From contig JAPKZO010000010.1 in the NCBI GenBank assembly GCA_026393755.1, forward strand, positions 1 to 52,493: a DNA stretch of 52,493 nt, written 5' to 3'. Positions 3,097-28,282 of the stretch are shown one piece after another. Numbering within the stretch: the stretch's first letter is position 1; every line of letters begins with the position of its first letter. The DNA comes from Acidobacteriota bacterium. GTDB lineage: Bacteria > Acidobacteriota > Vicinamibacteria > Vicinamibacterales > JAKQTR01. A model generated the notes under the pieces. It was not told where the DNA came from. It made no database searches and worked only from the letters and a program-made list of their open reading frames with translations. The position numbers and the translations under genes were made by a program.

Positions 3097-3117
3097 CTCT
3101 GGTAACACTTACTTATG
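3097..3117. other. Possible insertion-sequence end scar
   Basis: GGTAACACTTACTTATGGC lies exactly where homology to KDPG aldolase stops on the minus strand. It resembles the segment GGATCACTTACTATGGG at 107-123 in the terminal repeat. From memory, acidobacterial insertion sequences often carry terminal sequences of the form GTGTTACC. Reading it as the scar of a lost element that cut the aldolase gene is an inference; no transposase is present. Confidence 0.3.
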
Positions 3118-3122
3118 GCTCG

Positions 3123-3254
3123 ACAGGCGGGCATGGCTGGAACGTCCAGTTCGTGGCACGCGGTGATGACGTCGGGCCGGAAGATTGGCCCGGCCACGAA
3201 TCGCGGACCGGCCTCGATCTCCCGCACAATCTGTTCACGCCCGATGGATGTCAT
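3123..3254 (-). pseudogene. eda: Fragment of KDPG/KHG aldolase
   Basis: The minus-strand translation contains EAGPRFVAGPIFRPDVITAC followed by a HELDVPAMP segment. This matches the core of 2-dehydro-3-deoxyphosphogluconate aldolases (the GARFIVSP...PEVI..C...VPAMPG stretch). Only about 43 residues remain: the N-terminal half with the earlier catalytic region and everything after VPAMP are gone. The frame then runs through non-homologous sequence into the M3 peptidase. KDPG aldolase catalyses the last step of galacturonate and glucuronate breakdown, so finding its relic beside the polygalacturonase is meaningful. An intact copy must lie elsewhere if the pathway works. Recognition is by eye from conserved residues. 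Confidence 0.6.
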
Positions 3255-3354
3255 CTCGCGTTCCTTTCGCTGGCAGGCCATGGTAACCCGTCCCGGATTC
3301 AATCGGACCCAGCAGATGGATTCGAGGCGACATTTCTGGCACAATCGCGCCGTT

Positions 3355-4815
3355 ATGACTCAGACGGATCCATCGCGCCGCCGTTTTCTGAAACTGGTGG
3401 GAGCCGCAGGCCTCGTCGCCGCGTCTCCACTCTCGGCGTTCGGCTTCACCGACGCCGCATGGTCGACCATCTTCCCCTCCATCGGCGCCGACGACGCGTG
3501 GAAGGAAGCGGCGGCGATTGTGGCCCGTGTCGTCGCGCCGAAGTTCCCCAATCGGGATTTCGATATCACGAGGTACGGCGCGATCGGCGACGCCACGACG
3601 GACTGCACGGAGCCCATCGCGCAAGCCATCGCGGCGTGCGGGCGGGCGGGCGGCGGACGCGTCGTCGTGCCGAAGGGTGAGTTCCTCACCGGCGCGGTTC
3701 ACTTGAAGAGCCGTGTCAACCTTCACGTGGCGGCGGGCGCGGTGCTGCGATTCCAGCGCGATCCACGGCACTACCTGCCGCTCGTGTTCACGCGCTTCGA
3801 GGGCGTCGAGTGCATGAACTACTCGCCGCTCATCTACGCCTTCGAGCAGCAAGACGTTGCCGTCACGGGGACCGGGACGCTCGACGGCAACGCCGGCGAC
3901 GCGCACTGGTGGCCGTGGAAGGGACGGGACCCCAAGGAGAAGGCCAGCATGGCCAATCAACTGGCGGCCCGAGCGAAGCTGATCGACATGGCGGTCAAAG
4001 GGGTGCCGGTCGCTGAGCGCGTGTTCGGCGACGGCTCATATCTCAGGCCGAATTTCGTCCAGCCGTACCGCTGCAAGAACGTGCTCATCGAGGGCGTGAC
4101 GATCATCAACTCGCCGATGTGGGAACTGCACCCGGTGCTCTGCACGAACGTGACCGTGCGACAGGTCAACATCAAGAGCCACGGACCCAACAATGACGGC
4201 TGCGATCCGGAGTCGTGTCGCGACGTGCTCATCGAAGGCTGCACGTTCGACACGGGCGACGACTGCATCGCGCTCAAGTCGGGCCGCAACGATGATGGGC
4301 GAAGGGTCAACGTCCCGATCGAGAACGTCGTCATCCGCGATTGCGTGATGAAGGCCGGACACGGCGGCGTCGTGGTGGGCAGCGAGATTTCCGGTGGCGC
4401 CCGCAACATCTTCGCCGAGCGGTGCCGGATGGACAGCCCGAACCTGGACCGCGGGCTCCGGATCAAGACCAACTCGGTGCGCGGAGGCACGACCGAACAC
4501 ATCTACATGCGCGACTGCACAATCGGGTCGGTCACCGAGGCGGTCGTGACGGTGAATCTGTTCTACGAAGAAGGCGACACGGGCAAGTTCCCGCCGACGG
4601 TCCGCGATATTGAAGTGCGAAACGTCACCAGCAGGAAAGGCCAGTACGCGTTGCTGCTCCGGGGCTACACACGCACCCCCATCAGCGACATCAGGATCAT
4701 TGACTGCACGTTTGACGGAACGGAGAAACCGGATCTGATCGAGGGCGTCAAGGGCCTGGTGCTCACCAACACACGGATTAACCGCCGGTTGAGGAACGAG
4801 ACGATCAACAAGTAG
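3355..4815 (+). CDS. Tat-exported GH28 polygalacturonase
   Basis: A 486-residue glycoside hydrolase family 28 enzyme that hydrolyses alpha-1,4-galacturonan in pectin (polygalacturonase or exo-polygalacturonase). The start at 3355 gives a twin-arginine signal, RRRFLKL, and a hydrophobic stretch ending at SAFG, so it is exported folded. Parallel beta-helix repeats follow. The GH28 active-site groups are all present: NND with Asp281, GDD with Asp302/303, the GHGG histidine at 336 and RIK at 369-371. Its neighbours are pectin esterase, unsaturated-uronyl hydrolase and tagaturonate epimerase genes, which supports a pectin role. The relics of a pectate lyase and an aldolase flank it. Substrate detail (homogalacturonan or rhamnogalacturonan) cannot be told by eye. 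Confidence 0.93.
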   Translation: MTQTDPSRRRFLKLVGAAGLVAASPLSAFGFTDAAWSTIFPSIGADDAWKEAAAIVARVVAPKFPNRDFDITRYGAIGDATTDCTEPIAQAIAACGRAGGGRVVVPKGEFLTGAVHLKSRVNLHVAAGAVLRFQRDPRHYLPLVFTRFEGVECMNYSPLIYAFEQQDVAVTGTGTLDGNAGDAHWWPWKGRDPKEKASMANQLAARAKLIDMAVKGVPVAERVFGDGSYLRPNFVQPYRCKNVLIEGVTIINSPMWELHPVLCTNVTVRQVNIKSHGPNNDGCDPESCRDVLIEGCTFDTGDDCIALKSGRNDDGRRVNVPIENVVIRDCVMKAGHGGVVVGSEISGGARNIFAERCRMDSPNLDRGLRIKTNSVRGGTTEHIYMRDCTIGSVTEAVVTVNLFYEEGDTGKFPPTVRDIEVRNVTSRKGQYALLLRGYTRTPISDIRIIDCTFDGTEKPDLIEGVKGLVLTNTRINRRLRNETINK

Positions 4816-4869
4816 AGCGCACGCGTCAGTGACGGGCGGGCGGGACGTCTTCCTGCGCGGCCCAGCCCC

Positions 4870-5453
4870 TCAGCGATTCTGTCTCGCTCTCCAGGCCGGG
4901 CATTCGCGGTCGAGCAACTCGGTCGCCCAAGGTCCGAGCCAGCTGTACCCGGCACGGCGTTCGACTTCGATCTCGCTCAAGCTGAACTTGATAATCCCGT
5001 CGCGTCCGGAGTAGATGGGGCGGTTCGTCCCAATCTGGTAGAACCGCGCCCAGAGCGGCGGCGCCGCCGGGTCGGCCGCGGCGACGACGTCCCGACCGTG
5101 CGGACGCGCACCCGCGTCGCGTCGTCTACGAAGCCGAACGGGGCGCGCGACTCCCCGATCTCACGCAGCAGCCGCATGACGCCGATCATCGCATTGTCGT
5201 TGAACGTGATGCAGCGGGAGTAGTTGGTCCGAAGCGGATAGTACTGCGGCCAGCCGCCGTTCTTGTACTGCGCCGCGACGAGGTACGCGAGCCCCGAGTC
5301 GAATGCATCGCGGAAGCGCGCCTGCTTCGTCTGGTCGAACACTCGAGCGAGGTACCGCAGTTGAGTGTGGGTGGACCCGTTGTCGATCGTCGAATCGTTC
5401 AGCTCGCGCTCGTCGCGGCGTGTTACCTGGCCTGCGGACCCAGCCTCGCGCAC
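4870..5453 (-). pseudogene. Degraded PL10 pectate lyase
   Basis: Two pieces of a family PL10 pectate lyase lie in different frames. The upstream piece (about 5100-5410) reads NDSTIDNGSTHTQLRYLARV, then an AAQYKNGGWPQYYPLR segment and ITFNDNAM, all typical of PL10. The downstream piece (4870-5085) reads AAPPLWARFYQIGTNRPIYS, then GYSWLGPW, and ends at a TGA at 4870. The normal N-terminal third is absent, and the long stretch that should join the pieces, carrying the AWCAQHD-type motif, is deleted at about 5090-5110 with a frame change. It is not a working enzyme. It follows the CE8-CE12 gene on the same strand by about 65 bases, so it was probably once co-transcribed with it. Confidence 0.85.
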
Positions 5454-5518
5454 GACGAACCCGGCCTGCCGATCTATGGTTGCGGTCCCTCTTCCGGCGG
5501 CCGTTTACCGCCGACGAG

Positions 5519-7594
5519 CTATTTCAAGTACGGCGCGAGCGCCGGCACCAGACGCATAAGTTCGTCGGCGACGATGGCGCCGAAGGCCGTGCTCGCTGAC
5601 GTCGAGAGATGCGTGGTGTCCGGCGTGCCGTCCGCCTTCTCGATATTGAACGCCTCGGCTGCTGCCTCACCCATCCGGTCGAGCAGTTCGACGCTCCTGG
5701 CGTGCAAGTCGATCACGGCAACACCCTTCTCAGCCGCGACCGCCCTGGCGGCGGCGGCGTAGTCGCCAAGATCCGAGTGGATCTTTCCGTCCGGGCCGAA
5801 CAGCCGTCGAGTGAGCGGGGTCACGATGATCGGAGTGACACCGGCGGCTATGGCCTCATCGACGTACTGCCCGAGATACGCCCGGTACGTCGTCGTCGGA
5901 TCGGTCTCGCGGTCCGGCCCCTTACCTGGCATGTCGTTGTGTCCAAACTGGATCAGCGCGTAGTCGGCACGAGCCTTGAGCGCCTCGGTCCAATGCCCCT
6001 CAGCGATAAAGCTCTTCGAACTGCGGCCGTTGCGCGCCAGGTTGATGCAGTCGGCGCGATCCCCGAGCCGCTTCTTGAAGCCGGATCCCCATCCGGCTTT
6101 GTCTGTCACGGTCGAGTCGCCGACCAGGACGATGCGGACGCGCCAGGTGGGCGACTTCGCCGCGGATGGCGGCACAGGGCGCTCGGGTCGCGCAGGAGAC
6201 GTCGTTTGAGACGCGCCGGCAACGGCGAGTGGCGTACGCCCGGTGCGAAACGACCAGTCGGGCCCCACGATGATCCCGGACGCCGCGACCGAGTCCACGC
6301 GCCAGAAGTAGATCGTGCCTGGTGTGAGGGGACCCACCGGAAACCGGGTGGCACTGACGTCTCCGCGGACGGGCGGCGGGTTCGCCGTCCCGAACGACAC
6401 CCTGTACCGCTCCGCGTCTCGCGAACCGACCCATCGCAACGCGGCAAGATTCACGGGCACGTCGCGGTCGCCGTCCTCGGGCCGCGGCGTCGAGGTGAAC
6501 GGCAGCACCGAAGGCATGGTCTCCTCCGGATCCCACCGCCCCTGAAACGTCCAGACCGGCGTAATGTCGCCCGCGCGAGGCGCGCCGTCGGCGCTCTCCA
6601 GGTTGTCAGCGAACCACGCGAAGTTCCCGCTCTCGCGCTGGTTGTTCCAGAAGTAGCTGCGGGTCGGCCACTGATACGCGCTCTCTGCTGACGGCCGGTA
6701 GATCGGCCGGTTTGCCATGTTGGCCGAAAATCGATTGTCGAGGAGAAAGAACTGTCCATCGCGGTTGTTGCGGCCGAGCGGGAAGCCCGGCACGCCATCG
6801 AACGACGATCGGCGGATGACGAACCTCTGGTCCTTGTCCCTGCTGCCGTCGTGCCAGATGCTCGCCGTCAGGTTTCGCCCGAAGAACCGGCTGTTCGTGA
6901 TGTAGCACCAGCCGCGCGGGCACACGTAGTCGACCCATCCTTCGAAATCGCAGTCGGCGTGGTAGTACATCCCGTTGCCGGTGTTCCAGAGGCTCAACGT
7001 GTCACCGCCGTCGGCGATGATCTTCGCGTGCACGATGACGATCCGCGTCGCGATGCCGCCGCTTCGAACGGCAAACTGGTGGTCGTGGTCGCCGTGGAGG
7101 CGGCCGTAGTTGTTGTGGACGGTCAGGTTGCCCAAGAAGATGTCGCTCGATGTGTCGCCAATATTGACCACCGCGGCGCCCCAGTCGTCGGGATGATCGA
7201 CGCGCCAGTTCTTCCGGAGTTCGGCATACTGGACGACCGTCTTGTCGCGATCCTCACCGACGACCGCGACATGGCTCGACTTGATGAAGATCTTCTCGCG
7301 ATAGGTGCCGTTCCTGATCAGGATCGTCTTCGGCGTCCGGTTGTCCTGCGAGATCGCATCGAGCGCCGACTGGATCGTGCGGAACTGGCCGCTGCCATCC
7401 TGCGCGACCACCAATATCTGGCTCCGCGCCGCCGTCTCCTCCTGGCGTCCGGCCCGGGGAATCGGGCCTGACCCGATTTCAGGAAGGGACGACACCTGCA
7501 CAGTCAACGCCGCGGCCGCAACGACGCCCGCACACACACTCGCCGCGGCGGCGAGCGGCCGGCATCGCCGGACAGGCCTGTCATCCGTCGACAT
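5519..7594 (-). CDS. CE8 pectin methylesterase - CE12 acetylesterase fusion
   Basis: A 691-residue exported two-enzyme protein. After an Ala-rich hydrophobic signal region, residues ~60-350 form a CE8 pectinesterase beta-helix (GSGQFRTIQSALDAI; NLTVHNNYG; GWVDYVCPRG with the conserved Asp). Residues ~385-470 look like a fibronectin-type linker (AALRWVGSRDAERYRV...GTIYFWRVDS). Residues ~480-691 are an SGNH hydrolase of the CE12 rhamnogalacturonan acetylesterase type: GDS with Ser494, NLARNGRSS, FGHND, and a DTTH group with Asp659 and His662. It should remove methyl and acetyl groups from pectin so that the GH28 enzyme can act. It diverges from the GH88/105 gene across a 384-base gap holding a candidate operator, and is followed by the pectate lyase relic. 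Confidence 0.9.
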   Translation of the reverse strand: MSTDDRPVRRCRPLAAAASVCAGVVAAAALTVQVSSLPEIGSGPIPRAGRQEETAARSQILVVAQDGSGQFRTIQSALDAISQDNRTPKTILIRNGTYREKIFIKSSHVAVVGEDRDKTVVQYAELRKNWRVDHPDDWGAAVVNIGDTSSDIFLGNLTVHNNYGRLHGDHDHQFAVRSGGIATRIVIVHAKIIADGGDTLSLWNTGNGMYYHADCDFEGWVDYVCPRGWCYITNSRFFGRNLTASIWHDGSRDKDQRFVIRRSSFDGVPGFPLGRNNRDGQFFLLDNRFSANMANRPIYRPSAESAYQWPTRSYFWNNQRESGNFAWFADNLESADGAPRAGDITPVWTFQGRWDPEETMPSVLPFTSTPRPEDGDRDVPVNLAALRWVGSRDAERYRVSFGTANPPPVRGDVSATRFPVGPLTPGTIYFWRVDSVAASGIIVGPDWSFRTGRTPLAVAGASQTTSPARPERPVPPSAAKSPTWRVRIVLVGDSTVTDKAGWGSGFKKRLGDRADCINLARNGRSSKSFIAEGHWTEALKARADYALIQFGHNDMPGKGPDRETDPTTTYRAYLGQYVDEAIAAGVTPIIVTPLTRRLFGPDGKIHSDLGDYAAAARAVAAEKGVAVIDLHARSVELLDRMGEAAAEAFNIEKADGTPDTTHLSTSASTAFGAIVADELMRLVPALAPYLK

Positions 7595-7612
7595 GGCCGC
7601 AAGACTACACGC

Positions 7613-7623
7613 TGGTCATACCA
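7613..7623. promoter_or_regulatory. Candidate GntR-type operator in the divergent pectin promoter region
   Basis: TGGTCATACCA is a palindrome of the form TGGTnnnACCA, the half-site pattern bound by FadR-subfamily GntR regulators, many of which sense hexuronates. It lies 19 bases before the CE8-CE12 start codon, in the 384-base gap between two divergent pectin genes. I saw no second copy before the other pectin genes and no regulator gene in the window. The rest of the gap (7624-7978) shows no gene. Confidence 0.35.
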
Positions 7624-7978
7624 CTTTGCAACACTCCGAAGTTCGGCTATCATCCTGCCGGTCTTGCTTCGGCGGGCGCCGGTGCCTGATAACTGGCTCA
7701 ATATCTGAGTATTTCGAGAAGTCGTGATGGGTGAGCCCCCGCTCATTCCGTGCCGGCGAGGCACAAATGTCGAAGAAAGAAACCATGAGAGGAACGGCTG
7801 AGCTCGGCGAATTGGACAGCCCAATTGCCGTTCGACGTGTGCCGTAGTCGGAAGACGCGGTGGCGTCGCAGCCGTGGGTCAGGCAGTCCGGGTTTCGTCG
7901 GTGCTCGCAACCCACGTCAGTTCAGGGCTCAGTCGACGCCAGCGGCCGACGGTGCATGTGGCCAGGGAGAAACCGACC

Positions 7979-9397
7979 ATGACTCATGAACGCGTGAGAC
8001 AGGTGATTGCAGCCGGGATCGGCGCGCTGATTGTGGCTGGCGTGGTCGCGGGGCCAGCGGCCCGGCAGCAATCGCCCAAGCCCGCCGCACCGGCCGTCTC
8101 GATTGAAATGACCGGACGGTCGGACCCGTCGTTTGCGCAGCCATCGCTGGCCCCTGGCGTGGATTACACGGTGCCGGCCGAAGCCGACATCAAGCAGGTG
8201 CTCGATCGCGTGCGCGACTACTTCGTGACGAACACCCCGTACCGGATCATCGACGCGGTCACCAACCAGCCCATCACCGATTTTTCCAAACCTGTGAAGA
8301 CGGCGGGTATCGACTCCCGCATCAACGAATTCAACGACTGGACCTACTCGATGGGCGTGGTCCTGGCCGCGATGAACCACATCACCGACGTCACGGGCGA
8401 TCAGCGCTATCAGAATTTCAGCATCAGAAACTTCGACTTCATCTTCGACCACATCGACTACTTCAAACGTCAGGCGGCGGCGTTCGGCTCGCAACGGCTC
8501 GGCTATCGCCGCCTGATCGAGATGCGGGAGCTCGACGACGGCGGCGCGATGGGGGCGGCGCTCATCGAGACGTACGCGAAGAAGCCGGACCCGCGCTATC
8601 GGGCGGCCATCGACGCGGTGGATGCCCACATCTCGACCAGGCAGCTTCGCCTCGCGGACGGAACACTTGCCAGGCCTCGTCCCCAGAAGGTGGCCCTGTG
8701 GATTGATGACGCCTACATGAGCATCCCGTTCCTCGCCCAGATGGGCAAGCTCACCGGCCAGCGCAAGTACTTCGACGACGGCGCCCGGCAGGTGATCGGA
8801 ATGGCCGAGCGGTTACTGGACCGGACCACGGGCCTGTATGACCACTCCTGGTTCGAGAACAACGCGGCGGATCCGCGCTTCTACTGGGGCCGGGGCGCAG
8901 GATGGAGCCTGATGACCACGGCGGAACTCCTGAGCGTGATGCCGGACGACCACCCGGACCGTGCGAAGGTGCTGGCGATCTTCCAGCGCGCGGTGCAGGG
9001 CGTGACGCAGGTGCAAGGCAGCACGGGCCTCTGGCACCAGCTGCTCGACAGGACCGACAGTTACCTCGAGACGTCGGCCTCCGCGATGTTCACGTTCGCG
9101 ATTGCCCGTGGCGTCAACCGCGGCTGGCTGGCGCCTACCTACGCGCCGGTCGCCCAGACGGGATGGCAGGCTGTCGCGCGGCGCGTCCGTCAGGACGGCC
9201 AGATCGAAGGCATCTGCGTATCGACCACCGCCGCCTACGATGCGGTCTATTACTACAATCGGCCAACCGATCTGAAGGCCATGCAGGGATATGGCCCGGT
9301 GCTGATGGCGGGCGCGGAAGTCATCGCGATGCTTCGCGCGTTCGACATCGAGAAGTCCGTGAATACGTTCCACTATCGAGCGCGGGCCACCAAGTAG
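7979..9397 (+). CDS. GH88/GH105-type unsaturated uronyl hydrolase
   Basis: A 472-residue exported (alpha/alpha)6-barrel hydrolase of the YteR/YesR family. These enzymes remove the unsaturated galacturonyl residue left by lyases at the end of rhamnogalacturonan or other uronides, by hydrating the double bond. A signal region follows MTHERVRQ. Family signs are FNDWTYSMGVVLAAM, DDAYMSIPFLAQMG, FYWGRGAGWSLM and the late ETSASAMFTFAIARG segment. The start at 7979 is preferred because a signal peptide and the ribosome site AGGGAGA precede it; the open frame extends 35 codons further upstream. It opens a pectin run that continues with the DUF4861 and UxaE genes. It needs unsaturated substrate, yet the neighbouring lyase is a relic, so a lyase elsewhere or a neighbour organism may supply it. 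Confidence 0.9.
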   Translation: MTHERVRQVIAAGIGALIVAGVVAGPAARQQSPKPAAPAVSIEMTGRSDPSFAQPSLAPGVDYTVPAEADIKQVLDRVRDYFVTNTPYRIIDAVTNQPITDFSKPVKTAGIDSRINEFNDWTYSMGVVLAAMNHITDVTGDQRYQNFSIRNFDFIFDHIDYFKRQAAAFGSQRLGYRRLIEMRELDDGGAMGAALIETYAKKPDPRYRAAIDAVDAHISTRQLRLADGTLARPRPQKVALWIDDAYMSIPFLAQMGKLTGQRKYFDDGARQVIGMAERLLDRTTGLYDHSWFENNAADPRFYWGRGAGWSLMTTAELLSVMPDDHPDRAKVLAIFQRAVQGVTQVQGSTGLWHQLLDRTDSYLETSASAMFTFAIARGVNRGWLAPTYAPVAQTGWQAVARRVRQDGQIEGICVSTTAAYDAVYYYNRPTDLKAMQGYGPVLMAGAEVIAMLRAFDIEKSVNTFHYRARATK

Positions 9398-9487: not shown

Positions 9488-10663
9488 ATGACGCGTCTGA
9501 CCACTGCCCTGATCATCGCTGTCGGCGTGCTGCTCGCGGCGGCCGCGTTACCCGCAGCAGCGCCGGACGGCCTGGTCACGGTGCGCAATCCGATTGATCT
9601 GGCCCGCGCGAACGAGACCGTCGTGCTGCCGGCGACGGAACTGATGACGCTCCTCGCCGTCGACGATGTTCGGAAGGTGCATGTGCTCGACGGGGAGATG
9701 GAGGTGCTCGCTCAGGCGGTCGATCTGAATGACGACGGGAAGTTCGAGCAGCTGATTTTTCAGACCGACATCGGCCCGAACGCCACGAGGACCTTCAAGC
9801 TGGCGGCTGGCGCGCAACTGACGCCGAAGGTGTCGGACTTTAAGGCGTACGGCCGGTTTGTCCGCGAGCGCCGCGACGATTTCGCATGGGAGAACGACCG
9901 CATCGCGCATCGGATGTACGGAGCCGCACTCGAAACGTGGGCCCAGGAGCCGCTGACCAGCAGCGCGGTCGACGTCTGGACCAAACGCGTCCGGCGGCTG
10001 ATCATCAATGACTGGTACATGGTTGACGACTATCACCACGACAACGGCACGGGGGGCGACTTCTACTCGGCCGGAAAGAGTCGGGGCGGCGGCGGAAGCG
10101 GACTCTGGATCGACGGCACGCTCTACCCGTCCGCGAACTTTCGTGCCTCGCGTGTGCTGGCCAACGGCCCCATTCGCGTCCTGTTCGAGCTGACCTACCA
10201 GAACTGGGACGCCGCAGGCGCGAAGGTGTCGGAAGTGAAGCGCATCACGCTCGATGCCGGGCAGAATCTGGACCGCTTCGAGAGCGCGTACCTTGTCGAA
10301 GGCGCGTCACGCGACCTGGCCGTCGCTGCCGGCATCAAGAAGCAGCCGGGTTCGGAGATTGCGACGTCGAAGGAAACGGGAATCATGAGGGTGTGGGAAC
10401 CGGTCCAGGTGAAGGGCAACGGCAATCTCGGCCTCGGGGTCATCTTTGATCCGTCACAGACGTTGACGTTCACCGAGGGCGACGGCAACTACCTCGTAAT
10501 CGCACCCCTGCGTCCCGGCCGGACCGTCTCGTACTACGCCGGGTTCGCCTGGGACCGGAGCGGTGATGTGGCGAACGCCGCCGAGTGGGATGCGTACCTG
10601 AGCCAGTTCGCGCGGCGCCTGAAGTCCCCGCTGGAGGTGACGCTGGGTGCGCGGCCGCGGTGA
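9488..10663 (+). CDS. DUF4861 family exported protein
   Basis: A 391-residue protein with a clear signal peptide (hydrophobic stretch ending in AAALPAAAP) and the features of DUF4861. These include the AWENDRIAHRMYG segment, an Asp/His-rich patch NDWYMVDDYHHDN, GTGGDFYSAGKSRGGG and a late SYYAGFAWDRSG motif. DUF4861 proteins recur in pectin and rhamnogalacturonan loci of Bacteroidota and Acidobacteriota, and some are thought to act on unsaturated uronides; the activity here is unknown. The spacing of 90 bases after the GH88/105 gene suggests co-transcription. Confidence 0.8.
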   Translation: MTRLTTALIIAVGVLLAAAALPAAAPDGLVTVRNPIDLARANETVVLPATELMTLLAVDDVRKVHVLDGEMEVLAQAVDLNDDGKFEQLIFQTDIGPNATRTFKLAAGAQLTPKVSDFKAYGRFVRERRDDFAWENDRIAHRMYGAALETWAQEPLTSSAVDVWTKRVRRLIINDWYMVDDYHHDNGTGGDFYSAGKSRGGGGSGLWIDGTLYPSANFRASRVLANGPIRVLFELTYQNWDAAGAKVSEVKRITLDAGQNLDRFESAYLVEGASRDLAVAAGIKKQPGSEIATSKETGIMRVWEPVQVKGNGNLGLGVIFDPSQTLTFTEGDGNYLVIAPLRPGRTVSYYAGFAWDRSGDVANAAEWDAYLSQFARRLKSPLEVTLGARPR

Positions 10664-10823: not shown

Positions 10824-12362
10824 ATGAATTCCGCAGGTACGATCCTCACCGTGCCGAATCTCCATGTCCGGCCACAGTCGGTGGTGGCGGGCGACGACGG
10901 CGAGTGGGCACTCGCTCTGACGAATGACGATGTCCGGCTGTTGGTCTGTCCGGCGGCTGGTCACGAGGATGTCTTGCGGAGCTATGAGGGCGAATCCGGC
11001 GAGCATGACGGACACCGTCTCCTGATCGGACCGACCAGCGCCAGAAACGCCGCGGGGCTCCGCGCACACCTGTCCTGGCTGGCGCCACAGCCACTCGGCC
11101 TTTGCACGTCGTTTGGCTTCGGCGATCGTCTCGGTCTGGCGACTCCCGGGCACGTGAGGGCGCTGAAAGCGGCCGGCGGTCCCATCATCCCTGTGTTTGC
11201 GCAGCAGTCTGCCCGCGAGTTGACGCGAACCGGCCGCACGGCGCAAGACGTGCTGGACGCCGCGACGTGGGGAGCGTTCGCCGAGGGCTGGAAAGGCCGG
11301 CAGGGCGCCGACGCGGATCACCTGAAGACCACAGCCGACATTGACGACTACCTTGCCGCTGGCTTCACGATGTTCACGATCGATCCCGGCGAACATGTCG
11401 GACAGATCGAACCGGATGCGACGTCAAGTGATCTCCGGCTGGGATTTGACGCCCTCCCCTGGTCACTGATCGAGGAGACTCCCGCGGCGCTGCTGGCCCG
11501 ATACGCAGGCCGGGTATTCGACATCGAAGGTCACCCGATCCGTCTCGGCGAGGAGACGCTGGTTCGCGCAGCCATCAAGTACGCGCGCGCCGTCGTCCAC
11601 GTAGCGGTGATGTACAGGCACCTGCTCGCGGTTGCCGGGGCCCGATCGGTCGAACTCGAAGTCTCGGTCGACGAAACCGACTCGCCGACATCTCCGGCTG
11701 AGCACGTGTTCGTCGCGAGCGAACTGCGGAGGCTGGGCGTCACCTGGACGAGTCTTGCGCCGCGGCTGGTCGGACGGTTCGAAAAAGGCGTGGACTACAT
11801 CGGCGACGCCGCCGCATTCGAGGTCGATTGGAAGATCCACTCGGCCATCGCGCGCGTCCTGGGCCCGTACAAGTTGAGCCTTCACTCTGGGTCCGACAAG
11901 TTCAGCATCTATGCGGCCGTCGCCACCCACACGCGCGGCATCGTACACGTCAAGACAGCGGGCACCAGCTGGCTCGAAGCGCTTCGGACACTCGCCGCCA
12001 CCGACCCACCCCTCTTCCGTGAGCTTTACCGGTTCGCCAGAGGGCGCTACGACGACGATCGCGCCAGTTATCACGTCTCGGCCCGGCTGGACGCGATGCC
12101 GGATCCCGACAAGGGGACCCTCTCAGATGAGCAACTGCCTGCCCTGCTCGACCATTTCCACGCACGCCAGGTGCTCCACGTTACGTTCGGGTCGATCCTG
12201 ACCGCGACCGCTCCAGCGGGAACTGGCCGATTCTCTGACCGCATCATGGCAGGCCTGCGTGCCCACTCCGAAGCATACGCCGGCAATCTAGAGAGGCATT
12301 TCCTCCGTCATCTGGCGCCGTTCGCCGCATCGCACGATCGCCGGCTACTTCCCGAACGATAG
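10824..12362 (+). CDS. uxaE: Tagaturonate/fructuronate epimerase (UxaE family)
   Basis: A 512-residue cytoplasmic enzyme of the UxaE family, which interconverts D-tagaturonate and D-fructuronate. That step lets galacturonate enter the glucuronate branch and end as KDG. Recognisable stretches are CTSFGFGDRLGLATPGHV, ADHLKTTADIDDYLAAGFT followed by TIDPGEHV, SVDETDSPTSPAEHVF, LAPRLVGRFEKGVDYIGD and KLSLHSGSDKFSIY. The conserved His, Asp and Glu residues in these suit a metal-dependent sugar epimerase. There is no signal peptide. It is the only intact monosaccharide-level catabolic gene in the pectin locus; uronate isomerase, mannonate dehydratase, KDG kinase and KDPG aldolase are not in the window except for the aldolase relic. 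Confidence 0.88.
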   Translation: MNSAGTILTVPNLHVRPQSVVAGDDGEWALALTNDDVRLLVCPAAGHEDVLRSYEGESGEHDGHRLLIGPTSARNAAGLRAHLSWLAPQPLGLCTSFGFGDRLGLATPGHVRALKAAGGPIIPVFAQQSARELTRTGRTAQDVLDAATWGAFAEGWKGRQGADADHLKTTADIDDYLAAGFTMFTIDPGEHVGQIEPDATSSDLRLGFDALPWSLIEETPAALLARYAGRVFDIEGHPIRLGEETLVRAAIKYARAVVHVAVMYRHLLAVAGARSVELEVSVDETDSPTSPAEHVFVASELRRLGVTWTSLAPRLVGRFEKGVDYIGDAAAFEVDWKIHSAIARVLGPYKLSLHSGSDKFSIYAAVATHTRGIVHVKTAGTSWLEALRTLAATDPPLFRELYRFARGRYDDDRASYHVSARLDAMPDPDKGTLSDEQLPALLDHFHARQVLHVTFGSILTATAPAGTGRFSDRIMAGLRAHSEAYAGNLERHFLRHLAPFAASHDRRLLPER

Positions 12363-13122: not shown

Positions 13123-13815
13123 ATGGCGCAGATCTATCGCGACTCCGAGGTACCCGGACCCGACGTGTCGTACCGGGTTGCCCGAACTGACGCGACGCCG
13201 AAGGCGCTGCTCCCCGGCCATCATCAAGACTGGGCCAGGGCTCAAGCGGTGTCGTGGGGACCGCATCAGTACCGAACGACCTTCAGGGCGGTGTGGAACG
13301 ATGCGGGGATGGCCGTCCGCTTCGATGCCATTGACGATCGTCCGTGGCACACGATGCTCCGACGCGACGACGCGCTCTGGGAGGAAGAAGTCGTCGAGAT
13401 CTTCCTCGACCCGACGCGCTCAGGGGCCCATTACGCCGAGGTGGAGATCAGTCCCATCAACATCGTCACCGACCTGCACGTCGTTACGCCGTGGCCCCAT
13501 CTGGAGAACGTGCGAGGGTGGGACTGGGCCGGCTTCGAATCAACGGTCATTCCGGGGGCGGCGTTCGGGCTGCCGGGAGGCAGCTGGACGGCGCTGGCCT
13601 GGCTGCCGTGGAGCGGGCTCGCGTCGATGACGCCGGCCGTGTCTCCACTCGTGCCGCCGACACGCCGGGACACGTGGCGCTTCAACGTGTTCCGGATCAA
13701 GCGTCCGCACGGTCCGGCCGAGCCGGAGCGTGATGCAATCTATGCAGCGTGGTCCCCGCCTGATGGCCCGAGCTTCCACGCGCCGGCGTTCTTCCGAGAT
13801 CTCGTCTTCGAGTAG
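13123..13815 (+). CDS. CBM9-like carbohydrate-binding domain protein
   Basis: A 230-residue protein that is essentially one family 9-like carbohydrate-binding beta-sandwich. Typical features are RTTFRAVWNDAGMAVRFDA, the DDALWEEEVVEIFLDP stretch, a YAEVEISPINIVTD core and the closing RFNVFRIKR...YAAWSPP. No signal peptide or lipobox is visible, and no catalytic domain is attached. It could be a cytoplasmic sugar-binding or sensing protein, or its true start may be missed. It sits between the pectin locus and an M14 peptidase with no clear operon partner. Confidence 0.8.
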   Translation: MAQIYRDSEVPGPDVSYRVARTDATPKALLPGHHQDWARAQAVSWGPHQYRTTFRAVWNDAGMAVRFDAIDDRPWHTMLRRDDALWEEEVVEIFLDPTRSGAHYAEVEISPINIVTDLHVVTPWPHLENVRGWDWAGFESTVIPGAAFGLPGGSWTALAWLPWSGLASMTPAVSPLVPPTRRDTWRFNVFRIKRPHGPAEPERDAIYAAWSPPDGPSFHAPAFFRDLVFE

Positions 13816-25482: not shown

Positions 25483-26267
25483 GACCGCTCACCCGCCTGC
25501 GCCACGAGGCGCTCGATGGCGCCAACCGCCACCCTGACGGCGTTGGCTTCGCCCGCCTTGAGACCGTCCATCGATACCACCTCACTGTGTGCGCGATTGA
25601 CCACCACCCCGGAGACGCAACCGCCACGCAGACCCATCGCGGCGCAGAGCGTCAACACCGTAGACGACTCCATCTCGTAGTTGAGGACGTGCAGCCTGCG
25701 CCATTCCTCCGTAATGCCCTGAAACCGCCTCGGAACGTATCCCGAGTAGGAGTCGTACCGCTCCTGCCCCGGGTAGAACGTATCGCACGAGGCACTGATG
25801 CCGGTCCGATGGGGCACGCCGAGGGCGCGCGCCGCGGCAATCGCCGCCTCCACAACCTCGTGGTCGGCCACCGCCGGGTACTCAATCGGCGCGTAGTGCG
25901 TGGACGCGCCGTCGAGCCGAACGGCTCCCGTGGTAACGATGACCGTGCCGACGTCGACATCGGGCTGGATGGCCCCGGTGGTGCCGACCCGCAGAAACGT
26001 CCGAATACCGAGTTGCGCCAGCTCGTCGATGGCGATCGAGGCCGACGGCCCGCCAATCCCTGTCGAGGTCACCAGCACTGGTGTGACACCCAGATAGGCG
26101 ATCCAGGTCCGGTACTCACGCTTGAAGGCGAGTTCGCGGCTGCGCGCGAAGGGCGCCGTCCTGGCAAGTGCCTCGACGCGTCCCGGGGCACCCGGCAGCA
26201 GCGCGACCGTCGCCCGCTCGATGTCGTCCGAGTTGATATTCAGGTGGTAGACGGTACGCGGCGGCAT
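25479..26267 (-). CDS. udp: Uridine phosphorylase-type nucleoside phosphorylase
   Basis: A 262-residue PNP/UDP family enzyme that splits uridine with phosphate to uracil and ribose-1-phosphate. Signs are ALLPGAPGRVEALA, VTSTGIGGPSASIAIDEL, FLRVGTTGAIQPDVDVG, and the nucleoside-binding NYEMESSTVLTLCAAMGLRG. The last fits uridine rather than purine phosphorylases. It lies 10 bases after aat and overlaps the metallo-hydrolase by four bases, giving an aat-udp-MBL operon. Confidence 0.88.
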   Translation of the reverse strand: MPPRTVYHLNINSDDIERATVALLPGAPGRVEALARTAPFARSRELAFKREYRTWIAYLGVTPVLVTSTGIGGPSASIAIDELAQLGIRTFLRVGTTGAIQPDVDVGTVIVTTGAVRLDGASTHYAPIEYPAVADHEVVEAAIAAARALGVPHRTGISASCDTFYPGQERYDSYSGYVPRRFQGITEEWRRLHVLNYEMESSTVLTLCAAMGLRGGCVSGVVVNRAHSEVVSMDGLKAGEANAVRVAVGAIERLVAQAGERS

Positions 26268-26277
26268 CTGTTCCTCC

Positions 26278-26862
26278 TCACGTTCGCTCGTCGAACCGGC
26301 AATCGAGCTGCATGGAGGCCTGGAGCTCGGTCAGGTAGAGGTCACGCGGAATCTCCACCGCGCCCATTGTGGCCAGAAACGGCGTCAGCCACTGGACGTC
26401 GAGCAGACGATAGCCGCACGCCCTCAGGATACCGCACAGGCGCCACAGCGCCACCTTCGATCCGTCGGTCACGCGGTGAAACATCGACTCGCCAAAGAAC
26501 GCGCCGCGCAAGCTGACTCCGTAGAGGCCGCCAGCGAGCGCGCCCTCGTGCCAGGCTTCGATCGAGTGCGCGAGGCCGCGTGCGTGCAGCGCGCAGTAGC
26601 TGTCGACAATCTCGCCGTTGATCCAGGTGCCGTCATCGCGGTCGGCGGCGCAGGCCAGCATGACGTCCCGGAAGGCGTGGTCCACCGTCACGTCGAACCG
26701 ACCGGACCGGACCACTCTCAGCAGCCGCCGCGACGGATGAAATGCCTCGATCGGGAGGATGCCGCGGGGGTCGGGCGAGTACCAGTGGATCTCGCCGCTA
26801 TCCTGCGCCATCGGGAAGTAGCCGGCCTCGTAGGCGGCGACCAGCAACGACGCCTGCAGCAT
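26278..26862 (-). CDS. aat: Leucyl/phenylalanyl-tRNA-protein transferase
   Basis: A 194-residue transferase that adds Leu or Phe to the N-terminus of proteins starting with Arg or Lys, marking them for ClpS/ClpAP. Key stretches are YEAGYFPMAQ, IHWYSPDPRGILP, TWINGEIVDSYCALHARGLA followed by HSIEAW, GGLYGVSLRGAFFGESMFH and YRLLDVQWLTPFLATMGAVE. It is shorter at the N-terminus than the E. coli enzyme, as in many relatives. It heads the aat-udp-MBL operon. Confidence 0.93.
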   Translation of the reverse strand: MLQASLLVAAYEAGYFPMAQDSGEIHWYSPDPRGILPIEAFHPSRRLLRVVRSGRFDVTVDHAFRDVMLACAADRDDGTWINGEIVDSYCALHARGLAHSIEAWHEGALAGGLYGVSLRGAFFGESMFHRVTDGSKVALWRLCGILRACGYRLLDVQWLTPFLATMGAVEIPRDLYLTELQASMQLDCRFDERT

Positions 26863-27046: not shown

Positions 27047-28282
27047 ATGGTAACCGCTACGCTCCGTACTCACGTCACGACGACTGCCCTGCTGACATTC
27101 GCGCTGGTCACCGGACTGCCCGGATGCGGTGGAGCCGCCGGGGAGAGCGGCCGTCCCGCCGCGCCTCCCGTCACCCAGGAACCGGCGCCGAAACCGACCG
27201 TGGCCTATGATCACGGCCTGACCGATCAGGCTCGGGTCATTGCCGGGATGGATCCCGAGGATGTGCAGCGGTTCGCACCTGTCATCGCCCGTGCAAGCTG
27301 GAAGGCACACAAGAAGGAATTCGACGCGAACTGGGCACAGGTCGAGCAGCAGAGATTCGGGCTGATGCGCGAGTGGCGCAACAAGGAATTCAAGGCGATC
27401 GCCGACGGATGCGACACGCTCTTCTACCCGTTCGGGGGCCCCGACTTCCTCAACGCGTATCTGATCTATCCGTCGTGCAAGACCTACCTGCTATTCGGCC
27501 TTGAGTCGGTTGGATCGATTCCGGCCATCGAGAAGATGAAGGACGACAAGATTGATGCCGAGCTGGCGCAGTTGTTCGAGGCGCTCTCCGACATCTTCAA
27601 GCGCGATTACTTCATTACCAAGACGATGCAGTCGGAATTGCGCACGGCGGAAGTGGACGGCACCCTGCCCGTGATTCTCACGTTCCTCGCGCGGCTCGAC
27701 GCGAAGATCGTGCGCATCGAGACCGATGGCCCGTGGAACCGGCCGGCCGCAGCCGCGCCGGCCGCAGCAGCGGGGACCGACCCGGCGGGGACAATCCGGC
27801 CGCGCAGCGGGAGGCTGCCATCGGTGACGGTGTCGTTTGTCGGGCCGAACTCGGATCGGATCCAGCAGGTCACGTACATCCGCGTCGACATGATGAATCC
27901 GGCGTACTCGACACGCACCCAGTTGCTGAACTATCTGAAGGGCCTGGGGCCCCTCACGACGTTCGTGAAGTCGGCCTCGTACCTGATGCACGACGACCGG
28001 TTCTCCCTGGTCCGGAGCACGGTGCTGGAGCAGTCATCATCGCTGCTGCAGGACGACACCGGCGTGCCGTACAGATTCTTCGATGCCGCCAAGTGGAACT
28101 TGACCTTCTACGGGAAGTACTCGGCCCCAATCAAGGATTTCAACTACGGATTCCAGAAGGACCTGGACGCGGTCTATCAACGGCCGGGAGTCGCACGCGA
28201 ACTGCCCTTCTCCTTCGGTTACCACTGGCACGAGGGCACGTCGAGCGTGATGCTGGCTGTCAGGAAGACGGGATCTCTGTAG
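27047..28282 (+). CDS. Lipoprotein of unknown function
   Basis: A 411-residue protein with a lipoprotein signal: hydrophobic stretch TALLTFALVTG then the lipobox LPGC with Cys near residue 27. The rest shows no domain I recognise. It contains GCDTLFYPFGGPDFLNAYLI, a PSCKTYLLFGLESVG segment, an Ala/Pro-rich linker at ~228-245 and a conserved-looking C-terminal part (YHWHEGTSSVMLAVRK). It is probably anchored on the periplasmic side. The gap before it (26863-27046) shows no gene. Its last 23 bases overlap the convergent gene at 28260. Confidence 0.75.
   Translation: MVTATLRTHVTTTALLTFALVTGLPGCGGAAGESGRPAAPPVTQEPAPKPTVAYDHGLTDQARVIAGMDPEDVQRFAPVIARASWKAHKKEFDANWAQVEQQRFGLMREWRNKEFKAIADGCDTLFYPFGGPDFLNAYLIYPSCKTYLLFGLESVGSIPAIEKMKDDKIDAELAQLFEALSDIFKRDYFITKTMQSELRTAEVDGTLPVILTFLARLDAKIVRIETDGPWNRPAAAAPAAAAGTDPAGTIRPRSGRLPSVTVSFVGPNSDRIQQVTYIRVDMMNPAYSTRTQLLNYLKGLGPLTTFVKSASYLMHDDRFSLVRSTVLEQSSSLLQDDTGVPYRFFDAAKWNLTFYGKYSAPIKDFNYGFQKDLDAVYQRPGVARELPFSFGYHWHEGTSSVMLAVRKTGSL

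Follow-up and report, generated by a model that had tools for sequence, protein, structure and literature searches.

The window, meaning the whole 52,493-nucleotide stretch of DNA that we analysed, contains an open GH28 gene on the plus strand (positions 3115–4815; PF00295, 109 bits, over the cut-off). Its true start is probably at 3355, just before a weak, sub-cut-off match to a TAT signal. The nearest solved structure is that of an exo-polygalacturonase (PDB ID 3jur, 450 bits), and we found in the protein the motifs NNDGCDPESC, DTGDDCIA and GHGGVV, which we take to be the GH28 motifs holding catalytic residues. A PDB chain named 'Pectate lyase' (5olp) also matches over most of the length (310 bits); the name may misfit the family. 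On the minus strand, an open frame (5519–7594) comprises a CE8-like pectinesterase, a fn3-like region and an SGNH/GDSL (CE12-like) esterase. The SGNH domain scores over the cut-off of PF13472, matches 1deo weakly (E 3e-4) and stays far under the cut-off of the NCBIfam model PaeY. Three further genes lie on the plus strand. The first, an open frame for a GH88/GH105-family hydrolase (7874–9397; PF07470, 261 bits, over the cut-off), bears out what an earlier note on this DNA had said of the adjoining gene; its nearest solved structure is 3k11, named only 'putative glycosyl hydrolase', followed by YteR. The others encode a DUF4861 protein (9488–10663; PF16153) and the tagaturonate epimerase UxaE (10824–12362; PF16257). 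With UxaE here and a UxaC on contig C9, the genome encodes the opening steps of galacturonate use. Together, the open exo-polygalacturonase-like GH28 gene and the epimerase point to a predicted hydrolytic route. Downstream of UxaE, a CBM9-like protein (13123–13815) falls just under the Pfam cut-off, and two long frames farther on (25587–26516 and 27047–28282) have no Pfam match at E ≤ 0.001.

Between the GH28 gene, which ends at 4815, and the CE8-SGNH gene, which ends at 5519, we located two pieces of a PL10 pectate lyase gene on the minus strand, in different frames. Piece A (5097–5420) matches PF09492 over positions 25–134 of 292 (132 bits, E 2.8e-38). Piece B (4870–5139), the C-terminal part in the other frame, matches positions 230–291 of 292 (67 bits, E 1.6e-18); the Pfam match spans 5106–4915, and tblastn similarity extends to 5139. 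The stop codon of the piece B frame (4867–4869) and that of the convergent GH28 gene are 51 bases apart. Both pieces pass the curated PF09492 cut-off of 22 bits, and profile searches of the window and of the genome agree with the earlier description of PL10 halves in different frames, with the middle and the N-terminus missing. Taken apart, the pieces miss the cut-off of the NCBIfam equivalog TIGR02474 (121.6 and 68.7 against 189.8 bits), because they are fragments and the cut-off is set for the whole protein. Our own PL10 profile, built from 85 homologue rows, scores 151.7 and 83.7 bits in this slot, compared with 1.6 bits for the best of 500 two-base-block shuffles.

Two lesions can be traced. 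An internal deletion has removed ∼99 codons present in the homologue of genome G004, which belongs to the same family, and has changed the frame. The presumed junction zone (5097–5139, minus strand) shows similarity in both frames, and since these overlap, the break can be placed only to within about 5097–5139; the earlier note had recognized the deletion and the frame change and had put the break at 5085–5110. The overall extent it gave, 4870–5453, does hold the remnant but at its upper end takes in ∼11 codons outside the Pfam match. The second lesion is at the 5′ end, where the upstream SGNH frame stops ∼125 bases short of a DSTIDN motif; the intact relative has ∼80 codons in this place, and the first 35–40 PL10 model positions are absent from the window. 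No single-frame catalytic domain is found, with positions before 40 and 147–239 of our own model unmatched. Scanned in three frames, the linker from the esterase stop to the remnant (5421–5518, minus strand) gave no hit in Pfam, and a genome search with the region 5400–5530 returned no further copy at E ≤ 0.1. By eye the linker resembled a plus-strand foreign fragment, a reading that was rejected on these two grounds.

We aligned 88 full-length PL10 proteins, drawn from 89 candidates after dropping the partial sequence L082. Of the 51 columns conserved in at least 90% of them, 18 are absent from the window. These include an arginine column that is invariant in the alignment (R185, 88 of 88) and, eleven positions on, a glutamate column (E196), which align with Arg524 and Glu535 of Cellvibrio Pel10A (1gxm alignment; spacing counted by hand). 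The published description of the enzyme (PMC10992409) gives Arg524 as the proposed catalytic base, Glu535 as a structural glutamate and Asp451 as a calcium-binding aspartate of Pel10A. The column of the calcium-binding aspartate (D114) is retained in piece A, which is unchanged in all 20 of its conserved columns. Having lost its N-terminus and the middle part that bears the catalytic arginine, the PL10 lyase of the window should be inactive.

The remnant as a whole retains 33 conserved columns, and only one of these is altered. Measured against G004, the differences at the three codon positions are 0.27/0.27/0.49 and 0.21/0.21/0.48 for the two pieces, a pattern resembling that of the SGNH domain (0.25/0.26/0.50) and of GH105 (0.23/0.21/0.46) in the same comparison. 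The loss is therefore due to deletion and recent, or else an artefact; such near-perfect conservation would equally fit an assembly collapse or a strain-level variant. We consider it improbable that an assembly or consensus error conceals an intact PL10 in the living organism: one changed column in 33 is what an intact gene would show, but the error would have to account for two lesions within ∼430 bases, a stop directly after the SGNH domain and a linker that has no second copy in the genome. Moreover, the slot has no intact PL10 in four of the five relatives with the locus either; their assemblies are separate, and the boundaries differ.

The intact counterpart in G004 is a single open frame (L016, 3322–5961) made up of a fn3-like region, an SGNH domain and a complete PL10 domain. 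The SGNH domain is 62% identical to that of the window, the PL10 domain 58% and 68% over the two pieces, and the two loci share the neighbours GH105, DUF4861 and UxaE. The G004 protein differs in being intact and in having no CE8 domain, and the eroded neighbour there is GH28. The esterase frame of the window ends where the G004 linker starts, and the window remnant and the G004 PL10 group together (SH-aLRT 95) in a quick tree that omitted five divergent rows (L010, L011, L012, L014 and L015). From these comparisons, the lost C-terminal PL10 domain of an esterase-lyase is the most likely origin of the pieces, and we infer that the frame at 5519–7594 is the former N-terminal part of that protein. 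A three-domain ancestor, CE8-SGNH-PL10, in the window lineage would be a further inference; no protein of this composition was seen in any genome examined, that of G004 included. Among the literature matches listed, we found neither a PL10 loss at such a locus nor an SGNH-PL10 fusion.

PL10 might instead always have been a separate gene behind the esterase, fused later in G004, with the window copy having lost its promoter, signal peptide, start and middle. Stand-alone PL10 is indeed the rule, an SGNH match being found in 2 of 89 rows scanned (four of them on the wrong strand; G004 is one of the two) and a pectinesterase in 5 of 89; genome G003 carries a stand-alone PL10 elsewhere, and a larger deletion could have taken the start. 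We regard this history as possible, if doubtful: the ∼125 bases that follow the SGNH end, up to the DSTIDN motif, leave too little room for a signal peptide and an N-terminus, and the nearest relative, with which the remnant groups, is fused at this very domain border. In another arrangement (L027, 119–3200, Acidobacteria MAG45), a PL10 gene is followed by one frame joining GH28 and SGNH, the same parts paired otherwise.

An orthologue of the GH105 gene (E ≤ 1e-100) is present in 6 of 193 genomes of the class, that of the window included, with the same gene order in all; the proteins of the other five genomes are 65–73% identical to the window's. As the six loci were picked via GH105, the retention of this gene is partly a matter of selection, and genomes that also lost GH105 would be missed. 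The slot between GH105 and GH28 shows graded erosion. G004 has an intact PL10, next to ∼61 remaining C-terminal codons of GH28 (L016, 5977–6162), the window has its two pieces, and G003 retains the last ∼98 PL10 residues (120 bits), with no SGNH detected. In G034, a PL10 tail of ∼36 positions is left (28.6 bits; shuffle maximum 1.9 in 500); with an earlier profile, which had 4 of its 89 rows on the wrong strand, the tail scored 30.6 bits and the best of 200 shuffles 9.8. The slot of G024 and that of G006 have no detectable PL10. An intact PL10 is thus missing from the slot in five of the six loci, the window included; GH28 is open with its three motifs in five of six and eroded in G004 only. 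Model positions 40–146 are kept in the window and gone in G003, and positions 215–239 are kept in G003 and gone in the window; as the retained positions differ, the two losses are independent.

All four broken genes keep the end that faces an open convergent neighbour (that of PL10 in the window, in G003 and in G034; the tail of GH28 in G004), a regularity that would suit pieces still serving some function, for example through expression as a short protein, or by shielding GH28 as a convergent 3′ untranslated region. Random deletion, however, also predicts leftovers beside a gene under selection. No terminator-like hairpin was found in 4500–7000 in a scan of 4500–8000, the catalytic arginine is absent, and we hold a remaining function of the pieces to be very improbable.

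The GH105 tree (100/99) and the DUF4861 tree (100/98) both place G003 and G004 as sisters. Because these sisters keep opposite genes, their sequences are most simply read as descending from an ancestor with both PL10 and GH28, of which each lineage dropped a different one. The rest of the six are not firmly resolved in the GH105, DUF4861 and GH28 trees (G034 being absent from the second and G004 from the third), and the placement of G006 differs among them. In the quick PL10 tree, the remnant of G003 was placed apart from G004, although its best identity (65%) is to G004. One could go further and regard lyase and exo-hydrolase as alternatives, the ancestor having had both and lineages repeatedly dropping one while keeping GH105; a lyase-less GH105 would then scavenge the unsaturated ends of neighbours or have shifted its substrate. 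We think this unlikely. The combination of intact PL10 and eroded GH28 occurs in one genome of the six loci, for which the chance is 1 in 6 and not significant. PL10 and GH28 lie close together in other bacteria too (for example L027, L059, L075 and L090).

GH105 enzymes act on unsaturated ends made by lyases. The earlier note had reasoned that loss of the lyase by itself changes how the locus can work; against this, five of six GH105 loci are without an intact slot PL10, and three of these genomes (G006, G024 and G034) have no PL10 anywhere at E ≤ 0.01. Since GH105 persists in such loci, it does not depend on a local PL10, and both another lyase and cross-feeding are candidates for its substrate source. 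The earlier suggestion to look for intact lyases elsewhere in the genome met with a mixed outcome. PL1 (PF00544) and PL11 (PF18370) were found in none of five genomes of the window's family at E ≤ 0.01; the search of the window genome covered PL1, PL10, PL11 and PL22. It did return one divergent PL10-like gene on contig C23 (L019, 8132–9742; 24% identity, partial profile, 80 bits), whose product is a putative lyase with the arginine motif lining up in a pairwise alignment. Two other candidates were rejected. A match to PL22 on contig C5 (PF14583; 27 bits, 30.9 with neighbours, cut-off 30) is the β-propeller (PD40) of an S58 peptidase, and a weak, sub-cut-off Pec_lyase match on contig C28 overlaps a squalene-cyclase-like match that is likewise under its cut-off. 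The C23 gene adjoins a 1657-residue SGNH/laminin-G frame and GH43, and distant matches in G004, G021 and G053 (27–34% identity to piece A) may be its relatives.

Beside GH28 in G024 and G006 we found genes for KduI/IolB-like, KduD-like and KDG-kinase-like sugar kinase proteins (L130, 10949–14353; L129, 3096–6465), none of which is present in the window. NCBIfam names were assigned for the G024 genes only; KduD alone is over its cut-off, and the best name for the KduI/IolB-like gene is IolB. Judged by this gene content, a route for unsaturated uronates may have been kept in G024 and G006 without PL10.

Overall, we put the probability at about 0.8 that the loss of the PL10 pectate lyase is real and recent; the lyase most likely belonged to an esterase-lyase, either CE8-SGNH-PL10 or SGNH-PL10, as its C-terminal domain. 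An internal, frame-shifting lesion and another at the domain's 5′ end would account for the missing catalytic arginine and for what is left, an open CE8-SGNH esterase frame followed by lyase debris. Today the locus would probably de-esterify pectin, by the predicted CE8 and SGNH activities, and exo-hydrolyse it by that of GH28, and the galacturonate released from pectin would pass to UxaC and UxaE. GH105 may have been retained to process unsaturated ends supplied from outside the locus, by another lyase or by other organisms.

As a single pseudogene, the remnant is ordinary, and the whole looks like ordinary gene loss caught in progress rather than a new system. It is also a small, clean case in which a degradative locus has lost its lyase but kept the enzyme for lyase products. 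Should lyase-less species rely on other organisms for unsaturated oligouronides, the six genomes would form a ready comparative set for studying reliance on shared products of pectin breakdown.

Compared with PL10 enzymes of known structure (PF09492; Cellvibrio Pel10A, 1gxm, and Azospirillum PelA, 1r76), the window retains the likeness in the sequence of both pieces, in the calcium-site aspartate column and in the C-terminal motifs, but is not one frame and has lost the N-terminus, the middle, the catalytic arginine and the structural glutamate. Differential loss of CAZyme genes in pectin loci is a general phenomenon, and the window is an instance of it, with a broken gene in an otherwise open locus. 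What sets it apart from the general case is that erosion of one slot can be followed through several stages and that two sister genomes have lost lyase and hydrolase alternately.
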